Below the pieces are notes generated by a model. That model was not told the origin of the DNA, did no database searches, and saw nothing but the letters and a program-made list of their open reading frames with translations. A stretch of DNA of 64,000 bases from Mariniblastus sp. (lineage in GTDB: Bacteria > Planctomycetota > Planctomycetia > Pirellulales > Pirellulaceae), in assembly GCA_022447555.1 (NCBI GenBank), contig JAKVBF010000009.1, forward strand, positions 241,758 to 305,757. The letters are read 5' to 3'. Of the stretch, positions 48,898 through 52,164 are shown piece after piece (positions within the stretch are counted from its first letter, which is position 1; each line of letters opens with the position of its first letter). The position numbers and the translations under genes were made by a program.

Positions 48898-50124
48898 ATG
48901 ATCAGTCGAATTGAGTTGAAAAACTTCATGTCACACGCCGATACGGTAATTGAACCGGCGCGGGGTTTGACTGTTTTGATCGGGCCCAACAATTGCGGCA
49001 AAAGTGCCGTGGTCGCCGCGTTGCAGATTTTGAGTCATAACGACAATTCCACTTACGTTCTCCGTCATGAGGCAAAAAGATGTCGGGTGTCCGTGACGAC
49101 AGAGGAGGGGGATACGATCGTATGGCGACGAGGCAAAACGGGAGGGCCGGCCTACGAAATAAACGGTGCCACATTTGATCGCCTGAAAGGCGCTGGGCAG
49201 CCAGAGGCTTTGGCGAATACATTGCGACTTCCAAAGGTGGTGTGCGACCGGGACGATGTCGACATTCACTTCGGCGAGCAGAAGTCACCAGTTTTTTTAG
49301 TCCGTGATTCAGCTCGTACCGCGGCTGATTTTTTCGCCTCATCATCCGACGCAGGTCGCATGATGAAGATGCAATCGTTGCATAAACAAAAGGTGCGTGA
49401 TGCCAAAAGGGAATTGAAAACCTGCAGCGAAGAGTGGTTGAGAGTCGGCCAAGAGATGGAGCTTTTGTCAGTCATTCCAAAGATCAAACGGGAATACGAG
49501 AAGCTTAGTAAACTGTCTGGTTTTCTGGATGATTTGCTGGCTTCCAGTAAGCAATTGGCGGGGCTTATCCTCGAGATGAAAGAGCAACAAGCGACTTTGG
49601 AACAACTGGGTAGGAAGTCGGCAGCCCTGGGTCGGCTGTCTCCAATGCCCCAGATGGAGCCTGTCGATGAATTGAGTGGCTTGCTAGGGGCATTACGTGT
49701 GGAGACTCGGTTGGAGGAACGACTAAAAAAACAGGCCCTGGTGGTTGGCGATTTGGAACCTCCTCCCGTTCTGTCAGGGGTTCAGCAATTGGGTGATTTA
49801 ATTCTTCGTTTTCGTGAAGTTGCATCTGAATTGGAATATCGGACAGAGGCGGGTGAAGTGCTTGGGGCATTACCCCCACTTCCCGAGTTGTTTTCCACAG
49901 GTCATCTGCAAATGGAAATTGAGACGCTCCAGCAAAGTTCAACCGAAGCCGAACGGCTGAAGACTGAGATGGGAGAGGTAGCGCAAGAGATTGCGGCTGC
50001 AAAGCTTGCAATAGTGGAATGGGCCGAAAGAAATCCTCGGTGTCCCACCTGTGATCAATCGATCGGGGTGGATCATTGGTTCACACACGATCATCAGGAT
50101 TGTTCGGAGGAGCCTGATGGTTGA
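48898..50124 (+). CDS. Rad50/SbcC-like N-terminal ATPase half with zinc hook
   Basis: 408 residues. The N-terminal lobe of an SMC/Rad50-type ABC ATPase: start MISRIELKNFMSHADT, Walker A GPNNCGKS at 29-36, and a VCDRDDVDIHFGEQKSP segment with a possible Q-loop role. From about 160 to 375 it is helical coiled coil, in which G-x-L-x-P-x-P recurs at 245, 284 and 323. It ends 23 residues after a zinc-hook CPTC at 382-385. No signature motif or Walker B is present; these lie in the fourth gene of the operon. Full-length SbcC/Rad50 holds both lobes in one chain of about 900-1050 residues. The ATG at 48898 is chosen because the ATPase fold begins there; upstream in-frame sequence is unlike the family. 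Confidence 0.85.
   Translation: MISRIELKNFMSHADTVIEPARGLTVLIGPNNCGKSAVVAALQILSHNDNSTYVLRHEAKRCRVSVTTEEGDTIVWRRGKTGGPAYEINGATFDRLKGAGQPEALANTLRLPKVVCDRDDVDIHFGEQKSPVFLVRDSARTAADFFASSSDAGRMMKMQSLHKQKVRDAKRELKTCSEEWLRVGQEMELLSVIPKIKREYEKLSKLSGFLDDLLASSKQLAGLILEMKEQQATLEQLGRKSAALGRLSPMPQMEPVDELSGLLGALRVETRLEERLKKQALVVGDLEPPPVLSGVQQLGDLILRFREVASELEYRTEAGEVLGALPPLPELFSTGHLQMEIETLQQSSTEAERLKTEMGEVAQEIAAAKLAIVEWAERNPRCPTCDQSIGVDHWFTHDHQDCSEEPDG
50106..50112 (+). promoter_or_regulatory. Strong ribosome-binding site of the nuclease gene
   Basis: GGAGGAG lies 4 bases before the ATG at 50117, inside the last codons of the preceding gene. It fixes the nuclease start and points to coupled translation. Confidence 0.8.
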
Positions 50125-51103
50125 ATCGGTTCGAAAAATGACGAAACAAAAGGCTCAATGGAAAGGTTTGTTATTCATTGGCGATCCACACTTGGAAAAT
50201 CGACAGCCGGGATTTCGTAAAGACGATTATCAAAATGTGATTTTGGAGAAGATCAAATGGTGTTTGACGCATGCGGAAAAAAATAGGTTGCTCCCCGTTT
50301 TCTTGGGTGATTTTTTCGAAAAACCACGGGAAAATTCAAATTGGATGATCGGTCAATTGATGGAGATTCTCTATGGGACCGGAGCCATTGGAATCTACGG
50401 CAACCACGATTGTGCTAATCCCTCTTTGACCGATCAAGATTCCTTGGCGTTGTTGATTAAGTCTGAGTGTCTTCAGTTAATAAGTGCTGACAAGCCATGG
50501 AGAGGCGAACTGAATGGTTGGCCGGTCATTGTGGGAGGTTCATCTTATAGGGAGCCGTTGCCGAAACGTTTTGACGTCGAAATGCAGCCCAAAGGCACAC
50601 TGTTTCCCGAACAACCTCTTGTATTCTGGATCTCGCATCACGACATTAATCTTCCGGGTTACGATGGTGGCAGGCTGAAGCCGAGAGAAATTGAAAATGT
50701 TCAACTATTGGTGAACGGACATATCCACCGGCGTTTGGAGCCGGTCGTGGAAGGTGAAACTACCTGGATGACTCCGGGCAATATCAGCCGACGATCGCGG
50801 AGTGATGCCAATCGCTTACACGTGCCATCCGTGTTGCAGCTTGATGTGACAGAGGGCGATTTTAAGACTCACTACGTAACGATCCCTCACCAGCCTTTTC
50901 AAGAGGTTTTCCATGAGGCCGTTCAGGTGGCCGAGGGAGAAGGAGATTCGTCGACTTTTATCAGTGGTTTGAAGGAGATGCTGGCCCGAAAAACCGCCAG
51001 TGGTGCGGGTTTGAAGGCGTTTCTCGAGGAGAAACTAGTTGAGTACAACGAACCCGTTGCGGCAGAGATTATGTCCCTAATGAAAGAAATTGAAGATGAA
51101 TAG
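50117..51103 (+). CDS. Mre11/SbcD-like metallophosphoesterase nuclease
   Basis: 328-residue calcineurin-like phosphoesterase. Metal-binding motifs in order: GDPHL (22-26), GDFFEKP (64-70), GNHDC (95-99), ISHHD (about 177) and NGHIHRR (about 207). These match Mre11/SbcD nucleases, which process DNA ends with a Rad50/SbcC ATPase. After the nuclease domain a short region (residues about 240-328) carries a helical segment that could bind the ATPase coils. It overlaps the N-half gene by 8 bases and the coiled-coil gene by 8 bases. The start is fixed by the GGAGGAG site; the longer upstream frame lies inside the previous gene. Confidence 0.88.
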   Translation: MVESVRKMTKQKAQWKGLLFIGDPHLENRQPGFRKDDYQNVILEKIKWCLTHAEKNRLLPVFLGDFFEKPRENSNWMIGQLMEILYGTGAIGIYGNHDCANPSLTDQDSLALLIKSECLQLISADKPWRGELNGWPVIVGGSSYREPLPKRFDVEMQPKGTLFPEQPLVFWISHHDINLPGYDGGRLKPREIENVQLLVNGHIHRRLEPVVEGETTWMTPGNISRRSRSDANRLHVPSVLQLDVTEGDFKTHYVTIPHQPFQEVFHEAVQVAEGEGDSSTFISGLKEMLARKTASGAGLKAFLEEKLVEYNEPVAAEIMSLMKEIEDE

Positions 51104-51422
51104 GTCCCATTCTAAAAAGACGAACGAGCAGCAAGCGATTGAGCAATTGCAATCACGTTTTGATGATTTGTCGCATCAAAGAACGAGAATTGGGACGCAG
51201 CGAGAGGTGGCCCAGAAAAACCTTCAAGAACTACAGGCTCGAGCCATCAAGGAATTTGGTACCGATGATTTGGCGGAACTGGAAAAAAAACTTCATGCGA
51301 TGAAATTAGATAATGAAAAAAAGCGAGCCGAGTATCAGGCTTGTTTAGAGAAGATCGAACACGATTTAAATGAAGTTGAAGCAAAGTACGCCGCTGGCGA
51401 CGCGTCGGTTGGCGAAGGGTAA
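51096..51422 (+). CDS. Small coiled-coil protein between Rad50-like halves
   Basis: 108-residue acidic-basic helical protein with heptad-like Leu/Ala spacing throughout (EQLQSRFDDLSHQRTRIG, LQELQARAIKEFG, LAELEKKLHAMKL). A central break (KEFGTDDLAELE) suggests an antiparallel helical hairpin. I do not recognise a named family. Its place between the nuclease and the C-half suggests that it supplies part of the returning coil of a split Rad50-like arm; this is inference. It overlaps the nuclease stop by 8 bases (ATGAATAG). An upstream in-frame TTG at 51090 is less likely. Confidence 0.7.
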   Translation: MNRSHSKKTNEQQAIEQLQSRFDDLSHQRTRIGTQREVAQKNLQELQARAIKEFGTDDLAELEKKLHAMKLDNEKKRAEYQACLEKIEHDLNEVEAKYAAGDASVGEG

Positions 51423-51426
51423 AAAA

Positions 51427-52164
51427 ATGGTCTTCGTTCCCGAACCGAATGAAAAACCAAGGGCTCCGCTCGATACGAGTGGCGGGGTGAATGCGCGCTT
51501 GGGTGAAATAGGTCAGCGTCTGCAGTTTCTTGATTGGCAGCGAAGAGAACAGCAGAAATTAGAGAAACGTCTTGCGGAAAGAAAGAGCGAATTGGAAAGA
51601 TATCTTGGTATTTCAGGCGAGGTGTCCGAAGCTTTGGATGTTCTTAGTCGTGAGTTATTCAGTGAGACGTTGCGGGTCCTCGAAGAGAAGTTGACGATTG
51701 CTTTGCAAGAGGTGCTGGAACAACCCATTTGTTTTAAGGCGACGCCTGGCTTTAAAAACAACGCGGCCGTGGTCGAGTTCTCGATTGATCGAGGTGGCTT
51801 TGGCGAAGATATTTATCGAGGGCAGGGCGGTTCCGTCCAAAATGTTTTGAGTGTGGGGTTGCGTCTGTTCGCGTTGGCCCAGTTAGACGGTCTGCGGCAC
51901 CGAAGATTTTTGGTTCTGGATGAGCAAGACTGTTGGCTTAAACCAGAATTGGTGCCATTGCTGGTTAAAATGGTTTACCAGGCGGCGAAAGAGTTGGACT
52001 TCCAGATCATCATGATCAGCCATCACGATGTAAAGTTGTTCGAAAAATATGCCGATCGAATTTATCAATTCCATCCTTCCGCCGATGGAGTGACGGTCGA
52101 GCGCGTGGTGTCGGCACCTTTTGATTCGGATGAGGCGGGCGATTCGGAATCGGTTAAGGAATGA
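51427..52164 (+). CDS. Rad50/SbcC-like C-terminal ATPase half
   Basis: 245 residues. A short coil (about 25-95) leads into the C-terminal lobe of a Rad50-type ATPase: a signature-like segment GQGGSVQNVLSVGLR (132-146), Walker B FLVLDEQD with the catalytic Glu (161-168), and a switch His in MISHHD (197-201). No Walker A and no CxxC are present, so it must pair with the N-half encoded three genes upstream. Start: ATG 4 bases after the coiled-coil gene's stop, with GAAGGG before it. An alternative ATG at 51370 would overlap the previous gene by 53 bases. Its stop overlaps the convergent glgB end by 11 bases. Confidence 0.82.
   Translation: MVFVPEPNEKPRAPLDTSGGVNARLGEIGQRLQFLDWQRREQQKLEKRLAERKSELERYLGISGEVSEALDVLSRELFSETLRVLEEKLTIALQEVLEQPICFKATPGFKNNAAVVEFSIDRGGFGEDIYRGQGGSVQNVLSVGLRLFALAQLDGLRHRRFLVLDEQDCWLKPELVPLLVKMVYQAAKELDFQIIMISHHDVKLFEKYADRIYQFHPSADGVTVERVVSAPFDSDEAGDSESVKE

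Follow-up and report, generated by a model that had tools for sequence, protein, structure and literature searches.

Complexes of the Mre11-Rad50 (SbcCD) type combine a two-lobe ATP-binding cassette (ABC) head, which carries Walker A, Walker B and a switch histidine, with a CxxC zinc hook at the far end of a long arm and with an adjoining Mre11-type phosphoesterase. Canonically, the genes are ordered sbcD-sbcC, both lobes and arms of the ATPase lie in a single polypeptide, and Rad50 is thought to signal from the hook to the ATPase along an unbroken antiparallel coiled coil. Here we analyze four genes from a stretch of 64,000 nucleotides (hereafter the window) of Mariniblastus sp. (assembly GCA_022447555.1, contig JAKVBF010000009.1; the genome is labeled G000), whose products bring together the same parts but differ from the canonical system in that Rad50 consists of three polypeptides, with breaks behind the hook and ahead of the C-terminal lobe (C-lobe), in an arm built of 39-residue repeats and in a GQGGS signature. 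We consider it highly probable that the four genes encode a complex of the Mre11-Rad50 (SbcCD) type with such a three-polypeptide Rad50 subunit.

Non-canonical layouts of the pair are known from plasmids, phages and viruses, namely the Mimivirus-type and plasmid Mre11/Rad50 systems (PMC3175470), which in the available passages of that paper are fusions of Mre11 to Rad50 with no separate coil or C-lobe gene named; the word "split" is absent from its text. According to the same passages, two Mre11/Rad50 fusions were reported in 2011 with one SbcC P-loop segment "not observed". No account of a split or permuted Rad50 or SbcC was found in the open-licence literature, as covered by titles, the openings of abstracts and passages of PMC7824862 and PMC12153180, and the split Rad50 looks like a real, widespread Mre11-Rad50 variant that is apparently undescribed.

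Identity of the ATPase halves and the phosphoesterase

The genes lie head to tail on the forward strand at positions 48898-52164 of the window (Table 1), with an 8-base overlap at each of the first two junctions and a gap of 4 bases at the third, which agrees with the spacing given in an initial annotation made from the sequence alone. The start of gene 4 was taken as the ATG at 51427, 4 bases past gene 3, and a further in-frame ATG is found at 51370. Gene 1 encodes an N-terminal lobe (N-lobe) with Walker A, an outgoing arm and a zinc hook, and gene 4 a C-lobe with signature, Walker B and switch histidine at the end of a long helix. The gene 1 product starts with a lobe of Rad50/SMC type (residues ~1-138), continues with a long helix (139-245) and with helices separated by proline-rich loops, and carries the hook near its C-terminus. 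The initial annotation had assigned a Walker A and one CPTC without Walker B to gene 1, and a signature-like segment, Walker B and switch histidine without Walker A to gene 4; GPNNCGKS, CPTC (residues 382-385), GQGGSV, FLVLDE and ISHH were all located, and motif reading of the window proteins found no Walker B in gene 1 and no Walker A or P-loop in gene 4. Across 45 aligned N-halves (alignment A3), the Walker A residues G29, N31, N32, G34, K35 and S36 and both cysteines of the single CPTC are invariant.

At the sequence level, gene 1 matches the Pfam families AAA_15 (1.5e-11) and AAA_23 (2.8e-11), and genes 3 and 4 have no Pfam match above cut-off. The profile comparison with Rad50 that had been proposed places gene 1 clearly and gene 4 weakly: the N-half profile (45 sequences), run against PDB sequences, finds Rad50 N-lobes (best 1.6e-8) and SMC6 (2.2e-8) and, at its opposite end, the Rad50 zinc-hook structures 6zff (2.1e-5) and 1l8d (3.2e-4), and the gene 4 family profile finds an ABC transporter as its best match (0.0032) together with SMC (0.0046).

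For the AlphaFold model of gene 4 (predicted local distance difference test, pLDDT, 88.5), the two best VIA matches are Rad50 C-lobe chains, 9a9j_B (Z 12.0, root-mean-square deviation (rmsd) 3.4, 164 aligned) and 1f2u_B (Z 11.3, rmsd 2.8, 142 aligned). That of gene 1 (pLDDT 79.1, predicted template modeling score 0.35; pLDDT 52-92 in the last part toward the hook) shows a beta-rich lobe, helix 139-245 and more helices up to the hook. The two models match complementary chains of the same entries, gene 1 pairing with 1f2u_C/A and 9a9j_A, and gene 4 with 1f2u_B/D and 9a9j_B. Judged by chain lengths of 148-149 and 142-145 residues, 1f2u holds Rad50 as two chains, one per lobe, in agreement with the reported design of that structural work.

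In gene 2, the catalytic metal ligands seen in nucleases of the Mre11 type are preserved, as had been noted initially. It matches Pfam Metallophos (5.8e-6), its family profile finds SbcD/Mre11 chains among PDB sequences (best 7.2e-6), and the eight putative ligands (D, H, D, N, H, H, H, H) are complete in 41 of 41 rows of alignment A5, i.e. in the window and 40 relatives. Compared feature by feature with Mre11-Rad50/SbcCD, an N-lobe with Walker A is present by sequence profiles and motif, and a C-lobe with Walker B and switch histidine by fold and motifs, the CxxC hook lies at the far end of the arm and the window family has the Mre11-type phosphodiesterase motifs; a single polypeptide for both lobes and arms occurs neither in the window nor in the 60 four-gene loci described below.

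Table 1. Features of the four-gene locus, in window coordinates, and the evidence behind each assignment
Feature	Position	Strand	Basis
Gene 1, N-half of the ATPase, 408 residues	48898..50124	+	Pfam, PDB profile search, AlphaFold model
Walker A GPNNCGKS, gene 1 residues 29-36	48982..49005	+	Motif and alignment
39-residue arm repeats, gene 1 residues 246-284, 285-323 and 324-362	49633..49983	+	Model and arm-length analysis
Zinc-hook CPTC, gene 1 residues 382-385, 27 residues before the C-terminus	50041..50052	+	Motif, alignment, profile
Gene 2, Mre11/SbcD-type metallophosphoesterase (MPE), 328 residues, 8-base overlap with gene 1	50117..51103	+	Pfam, profile, ligands
Gene 3, small coil protein, 108 residues, helix-FGTDD-helix, 8-base overlap with gene 2	51096..51422	+	Conserved family
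Gene 4, C-half of the ATPase, 245 residues: helix 20-97, then Rad50-type C-lobe	51427..52164	+	Motifs and AlphaFold model
Signature-like GQGGSV, gene 4	51820..51837	+	44/47 aligned sequences; remaining three GxGGSV
Walker B FLVLDE, then QDCWL, gene 4	51907..51924	+	Motif and alignment
Switch-histidine segment ISHH, gene 4	52015..52026	+	46/47 aligned sequences; remaining one VSHH

Conservation of gene order and unlinked partners

A C-lobe scan of genome contigs yielded 132 relatives, of which the best 80 loci were fetched and examined. This neighborhood survey, which had been suggested for Planctomycetes, shows all four families on one strand in the order N-half, MPE, coil, C-half (N-MPE-coil-C) in 60 of the 80 loci. 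Carriers belong mostly to Planctomycetota and Thermodesulfobacteriota, and the split is also found in records titled Poribacteria, Sumerlaeota, Parachlamydiaceae and Bacillota, the labels being the records' own titles and the records mostly metagenome-assembled genomes; plasmids and phages add to this range. When start codons are chosen by script, overlapping or abutting frames are seen for N and MPE in 57/60 loci and for MPE and coil in 58/60, the overlap being exactly 8 bases in 24/60 and 18/60, respectively, and the gap between coil and C is at most 50 bases in 51/60. A representative set of 46 was taken from the 60 loci, leaving out 8 whose N gene is cut or short and 6 that are redundant; from these, alignment A3 omits 2 (L042 and L044, where CxxC is absent in the called frame), A5 omits 6 and A6 omits 17.

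The division of motifs between the halves extends to these loci, with a P-loop in all 52 complete N-halves and in none of the 60 C-halves, and with LDExD and GGSV in 60 of 60 C-halves. Concerning the hook, L042 and L044 are without a copy of CxxC in the called frame, and four loci have a second one.

The remaining 20 loci comprise ten in which the match lies near a contig end, five of them still showing coil-C or MPE-coil-C, nine with a solitary C gene, and L077, which has no partner genes within 2.7 kb upstream. Genome searches recovered MPE in eight of the nine genomes with a solitary C gene, N in eight and both in seven, in every case with C on a different contig from the N or MPE found, these genomes being drafts in which contig separation gives no true distances. 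The coil is present in eight, adjoining MPE in five and lying on another contig in three (G392, G393 and G394), where N-MPE, coil and C occupy three separate contigs; it was not found in G396. Such joint retention after loss of linkage is good evidence of joint function.

The initial annotation had named three ways in which a split ATPase could prove illusory: a sequencing frameshift joining the halves, the absence of the split in relatives, and a structure prediction that fails to join the lobes. A frameshift or pseudogene is rejected, since two other genes lie between the halves in 60 of the 80 loci, and the split recurs across several phyla, plasmids and phages. On the third point, the single-chain models of the halves match complementary chains of 1f2u and 9a9j, and six megaplasmids encode both halves as one chain (see below).

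Permuted one-chain versions on megaplasmids

A fused chain encoded on plasmids gives direct evidence, and the strongest here, that both lobes form one ATPase. Gene 4 was searched against 72,556 plasmid records, 21 of which match, and six proteobacterial megaplasmids were opened; all six encode one chain of 546-663 residues with the C-lobe first, then the P-loop N-lobe, and CxxC last. In profile-profile comparison with the alignment of fused chains, the N family falls on columns 232-654 (E 7.5e-49) and the C family on columns 8-205 (E 1.2e-40). The proposal that the window's ATPase is assembled from separate polypeptides is thus supported by relatives whose halves are one chain.

Upstream of the fused chain lies, in 6/6, a small gene with a (Y/F)GTDD-like motif region (these plasmid coil genes were members of the coil profile, so that their match to it is by construction), and the downstream gene is recognized by the phosphoesterase profile in 5/6. 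The resulting order, coil-[C-N]-MPE, corresponds to N-MPE-coil-C after rotation. In the C-lobe tree, the fused plasmids group to one side of a branch, as do the phages, but the branches are very long; that the split arose before the fusion is only suggested. The versions labeled L011, L012, L014 and L016, from megaplasmids of Pseudomonas, Aeromonas, Alteromonas and Vibrio, retain their motifs for ATPase and hook.

Phages and Bacillota plasmids

With the two halves from phage Magritte as queries against an annotated phage collection, four distinct phages were found in which the N and C genes lie apart. In Magritte there is a phosphoesterase too; Tunturi_5 has N and the small gene together, an SbcD-like gene nearby and C elsewhere; Bacillus phage vB_BboS-125 shows N, an AP2 gene, the small gene and C, with the phosphoesterase after C; and in a 485-kb uncultured phage N, MPE, small coil and C follow one another in this order, interrupted by other genes, the coil being judged by eye. 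Among the intervening genes are that of the AP2-domain protein of vB_BboS-125, between N-half and small coil gene (L128:4907-5479), and a gene of 377 residues, sliding-clamp-like by eye, between the coil and C-lobe genes of the 485-kb phage (L129:11124-12257). In PHROGs, gene 1 matches 16465 (exonuclease, 491 positions; 4.5e-14) and also 77 (4e-14), and gene 4 matches 15167 (ATPase, 211 positions; 3.3e-8); our reading is that PHROG 16465 and PHROG 15167, filed as unconnected, are the phage N-half and C-half of one ATPase. No relative was found in viral_contigs, whether the query was the C-lobe alignment, the alignment of fused chains or a fused protein.

Concerning Bacillota plasmids, four of nine matching records were opened. 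The Alkaliphilus plasmid has MPE-N-small gene-C, colinear with sbcD-sbcC with sbcC cut twice, that of Bacillus velezensis has N-small gene-C-x-MPE, and those of Geobacillus and Paenibacillus have [MPE:N fused]-small gene-C. The coil profile does not extend to the small gene of phages and Bacillota, whose identification rests on place, size and a helix-G-helix look. The MPE:N-half fusions lie at L132:2921-5326 and L159:1600-4125, with separate small-coil and C-lobe genes downstream. The Geobacillus and Paenibacillus layouts suggest a reason for the segment "not observed" in the fusions of PMC3175470, whose two records our searches did not reach; a link to those fusions through Bacillus phage 0305phi8-36, itself not reached through the Geobacillus homolog, is a guess.

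The repeat arm and the small coil protein

Arm lengths, taken from the lobe-end motif to the hook, were measured in 52 of 61 N-halves (the 60 loci and the window; nine were unmeasurable) and cluster at 198, 237, 276, 315, 354 and 393 residues; two further arms measure 509 and 513. The length equals 3 modulo 39 exactly in 40/52, the other 12 being up to 7 residues off, and in a non-redundant set 38/43 arms lie within one residue of the 39-step series; the lag-39 self-similarity of the arms is above all 1000 shuffles. Compared with the seven length classes, which were collapsed by hand (511 standing for 509 and 513), 20,000 random sets of as many lengths included none of equal regularity at any period from 25 to 60, a figure which, given shared descent, is a description rather than a probability. 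The repeat unit reads L-PP-L-D-T--L--L---L (117 units), and in the window model one repeat is a 28-residue helix plus an 11-residue loop. Seven canonical SbcC proteins lack the period in their ascending arms, and the same test did not detect it in N-halves of plasmids or phages. A spacing of 34-35 residues is seen in plasmid L015.

Gene 3 has no match above cut-off in Pfam, the curated models or PHROGs, and belongs to a conserved family whose alignment has a helix-(Y/F)GTDD-helix look; its size agrees with the 108-residue coil noted initially. Coils span 97-131 residues and C-half arms 108-150, compared with 198-513 for N arms, and neither follows the N arm in 39-residue steps. Because coil length ignores these steps, gene 3 is unlikely to be a full antiparallel partner of the arm, and because the steps are matched by neither coil nor C-half arm, an ordinary two-stranded coiled coil probably does not run the full length of the arm. 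Coil and arm length do show a weak positive rank correlation (rho 0.42, p 0.006, 41 loci with no kinship correction, 5 of 46 arms having been dropped for lack of the anchor or hook motif).

The same mismatch of lengths would suit a gene 3 that regulates or loads the complex independently, as a kleisin- or Nbs1-like accessory, and is not the returning coil. We regard this as somewhat unlikely: small genes of similar size lie between the hook end and the C-lobe in the Bacillota plasmids and in one Bacillus phage, a place that supports a role in the returning strand, the gene 3 family looks two-helical, and the correlation just mentioned points the same way. The suggestion that gene 3 supplies part of the returning coil is therefore plausible as a part, and does not extend to a partner for the full arm.

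A bolder reading, which we put forward tentatively, is that of a distinct Mre11-Rad50 branch in which Rad50 is tripartite by design and cut at the hook, the arm is a modular ruler of helical repeats (~198+39k residues, k up to ~8) unmatched by the returning strand, and a continuous hook-to-head polypeptide is dispensable, as the rebuilding of the head into a C-N permuted chain would show. If so, the reach of the arm would be tunable by repeat number with coil and C-lobe constant, and C-lobe and coil, as separate subunits, could be exchanged or regulated in trans.

Proposed function and alternatives

In the Mre11-Rad50 (SbcCD)-type complex that we favor, genes 1 and 4 would join into one ABC head, and two heads would dimerize around ATP and gate the gene 2 nuclease dimer. 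The hook would link the two arms through Zn, gene 3 would contribute to the returning strand, binding along the proximal arm or close to the hook, and the complex would open and trim DNA ends, hairpins or protein-blocked ends, as SbcCD does. The initial annotation had likewise proposed one DNA-end-processing complex; its composite ATPase is supported by the permuted fusion, the conserved order and the retention of unlinked genes, and nuclease activity, ATP gating, subunit contacts and DNA-end processing are steps that we infer.

Several observations weigh against this assignment. The canonical ABC signature has the form (S)GG(E/Q/M), and GQGGSV is without the usual Ser before GG, the GG itself being kept. 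A Walker-B-like IFLLDE occurs at residues 130-138 in 4/60 N-halves, the C-lobe and coil profiles have no significant alignment to seven planctomycete SbcC proteins (probability below 2%, with a shallow alignment), and the length of gene 3, as discussed, does not follow the N arm in 39-residue steps. The N-lobe fold alone fails to single out Rad50, RecF and SMC being equally close (Z 13.0 for RecF, 12.8 for SMC and 10.7 for the Rad50 N-lobe). Finally, the phosphoesterase ligands are complete only in L013 and L015 of the six megaplasmids, some being lost in L011, L014 and L016, and the downstream gene of L012 is not recognized by the phosphoesterase profile.

The last two points would also fit an SMC-like DNA tether or clamp, whose ATPase and hook would keep hold of DNA, with a phosphoesterase that is accessory or not a nuclease, as the four megaplasmid versions with lost ligands or an unrecognized downstream gene keep P-loop, Walker B and hook. 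Those four are likely nuclease-dead, judging by their sequences, and because ligands are lost or the gene is unrecognized in 4/6 megaplasmid versions, nuclease function is not general to the whole family. As an explanation of the window locus a tether is nevertheless improbable, given that the window and 40 relatives retain the full set of eight ligands, that the C-lobe model matches Rad50 best and that the hook region matches Rad50 hook structures.

The Mre11-Rad50-type complex may stand in for SbcCD in the window genome. A check for an intact sbcCD elsewhere, as advised initially, gave a partial answer. No match to SbcC (TIGR00618) was found in the genome at E<=1e-30, a weak test, since this limit is reached in only 7/14 control genomes; the curated cut-off of TIGR00618 is narrow, being reached in 0/59 genomes of the class and 1/14 controls. 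Among the matches listed, genes 1 and 4 have none to TIGR00618 and gene 2 none to TIGR00619 (SbcD), and in this the window proteins differ from SbcC and SbcD as these families define them. The one SbcD-type hit of the genome is another gene and lies below cut-off (2.7e-7): a Metallophos phosphoesterase of 455 residues adjoining an SMC-like AAA_27 ATPase of 1134 residues (G000:C9:34500-42000). This is presumably a YhaN/YhaO-like pair, which likewise sets an SMC-like ATPase beside a phosphoesterase but has a one-chain ATPase and occupies a separate locus. The three long frames examined among the genome's AAA_23 hits, which also include frames of 1345 and 2355 residues, prove to be SMC, the AAA_27 protein and one without ABC match.

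Across 248 genomes of the class, strong SbcD-type hits (E<=1e-9) occur in 2/26 genomes with the C-lobe versus 170/222 without it, a tally that is hand-compiled, threshold-dependent and without kinship correction, with 13 of the 26 genomes belonging to one genus, and that scores the window genome, with its YhaO-like gene, as absent. At the SbcD family's own cut-off the counts are 1/26 versus 50/222, by the rows listed. This distribution suggests replacement.

Even less probable than a tether is a defense or counter-defense system, comparable to the Rad50-like ATPases of Lamassu, Gabija and retron effectors, in place of housekeeping repair. Such a role would agree with the sporadic spread within the class (26/248 genomes, 12/131 genera), with the occurrence on plasmids and phages, and with PADLOC, where gene 1 matches 80 models (best AriA, 3.7e-12; also GajA and LmuB, 4.5e-8) and gene 4 four (best mad3, 1.1e-5). 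Most of the gene 1 matches shown, however, span its first ~50 residues, i.e. the common P-loop region, gene 2 has no PADLOC match and gene 3 only three weak coiled-coil ones. There is no effector domain besides the phosphoesterase, the helical arm with its hook is as in Rad50, and the SbcD tally, with the limits given above, looks more like replacement than added defense. PADLOC gave no defense family that matches over the whole length.

Implications for the Mre11-Rad50 family

In many lineages the covalent path between hook and ATPase is cut after the hook and before the C-lobe, and on the megaplasmids the head is circularly permuted. Hook and ATPase motifs are kept despite the cut, and in the chromosomal family the nuclease ligands as well, which makes the split version a natural experiment on the role of the coil. 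It should be noted that genomes with the split version should not be scored as lacking SbcCD, and that scattered phage and plasmid annotations such as "exonuclease", "ATPase", "ParA" and "hypothetical" become readable as parts of one machine. Lobes that can be expressed separately, together with arms of varied length, offer material for testing models of tethering and allostery.

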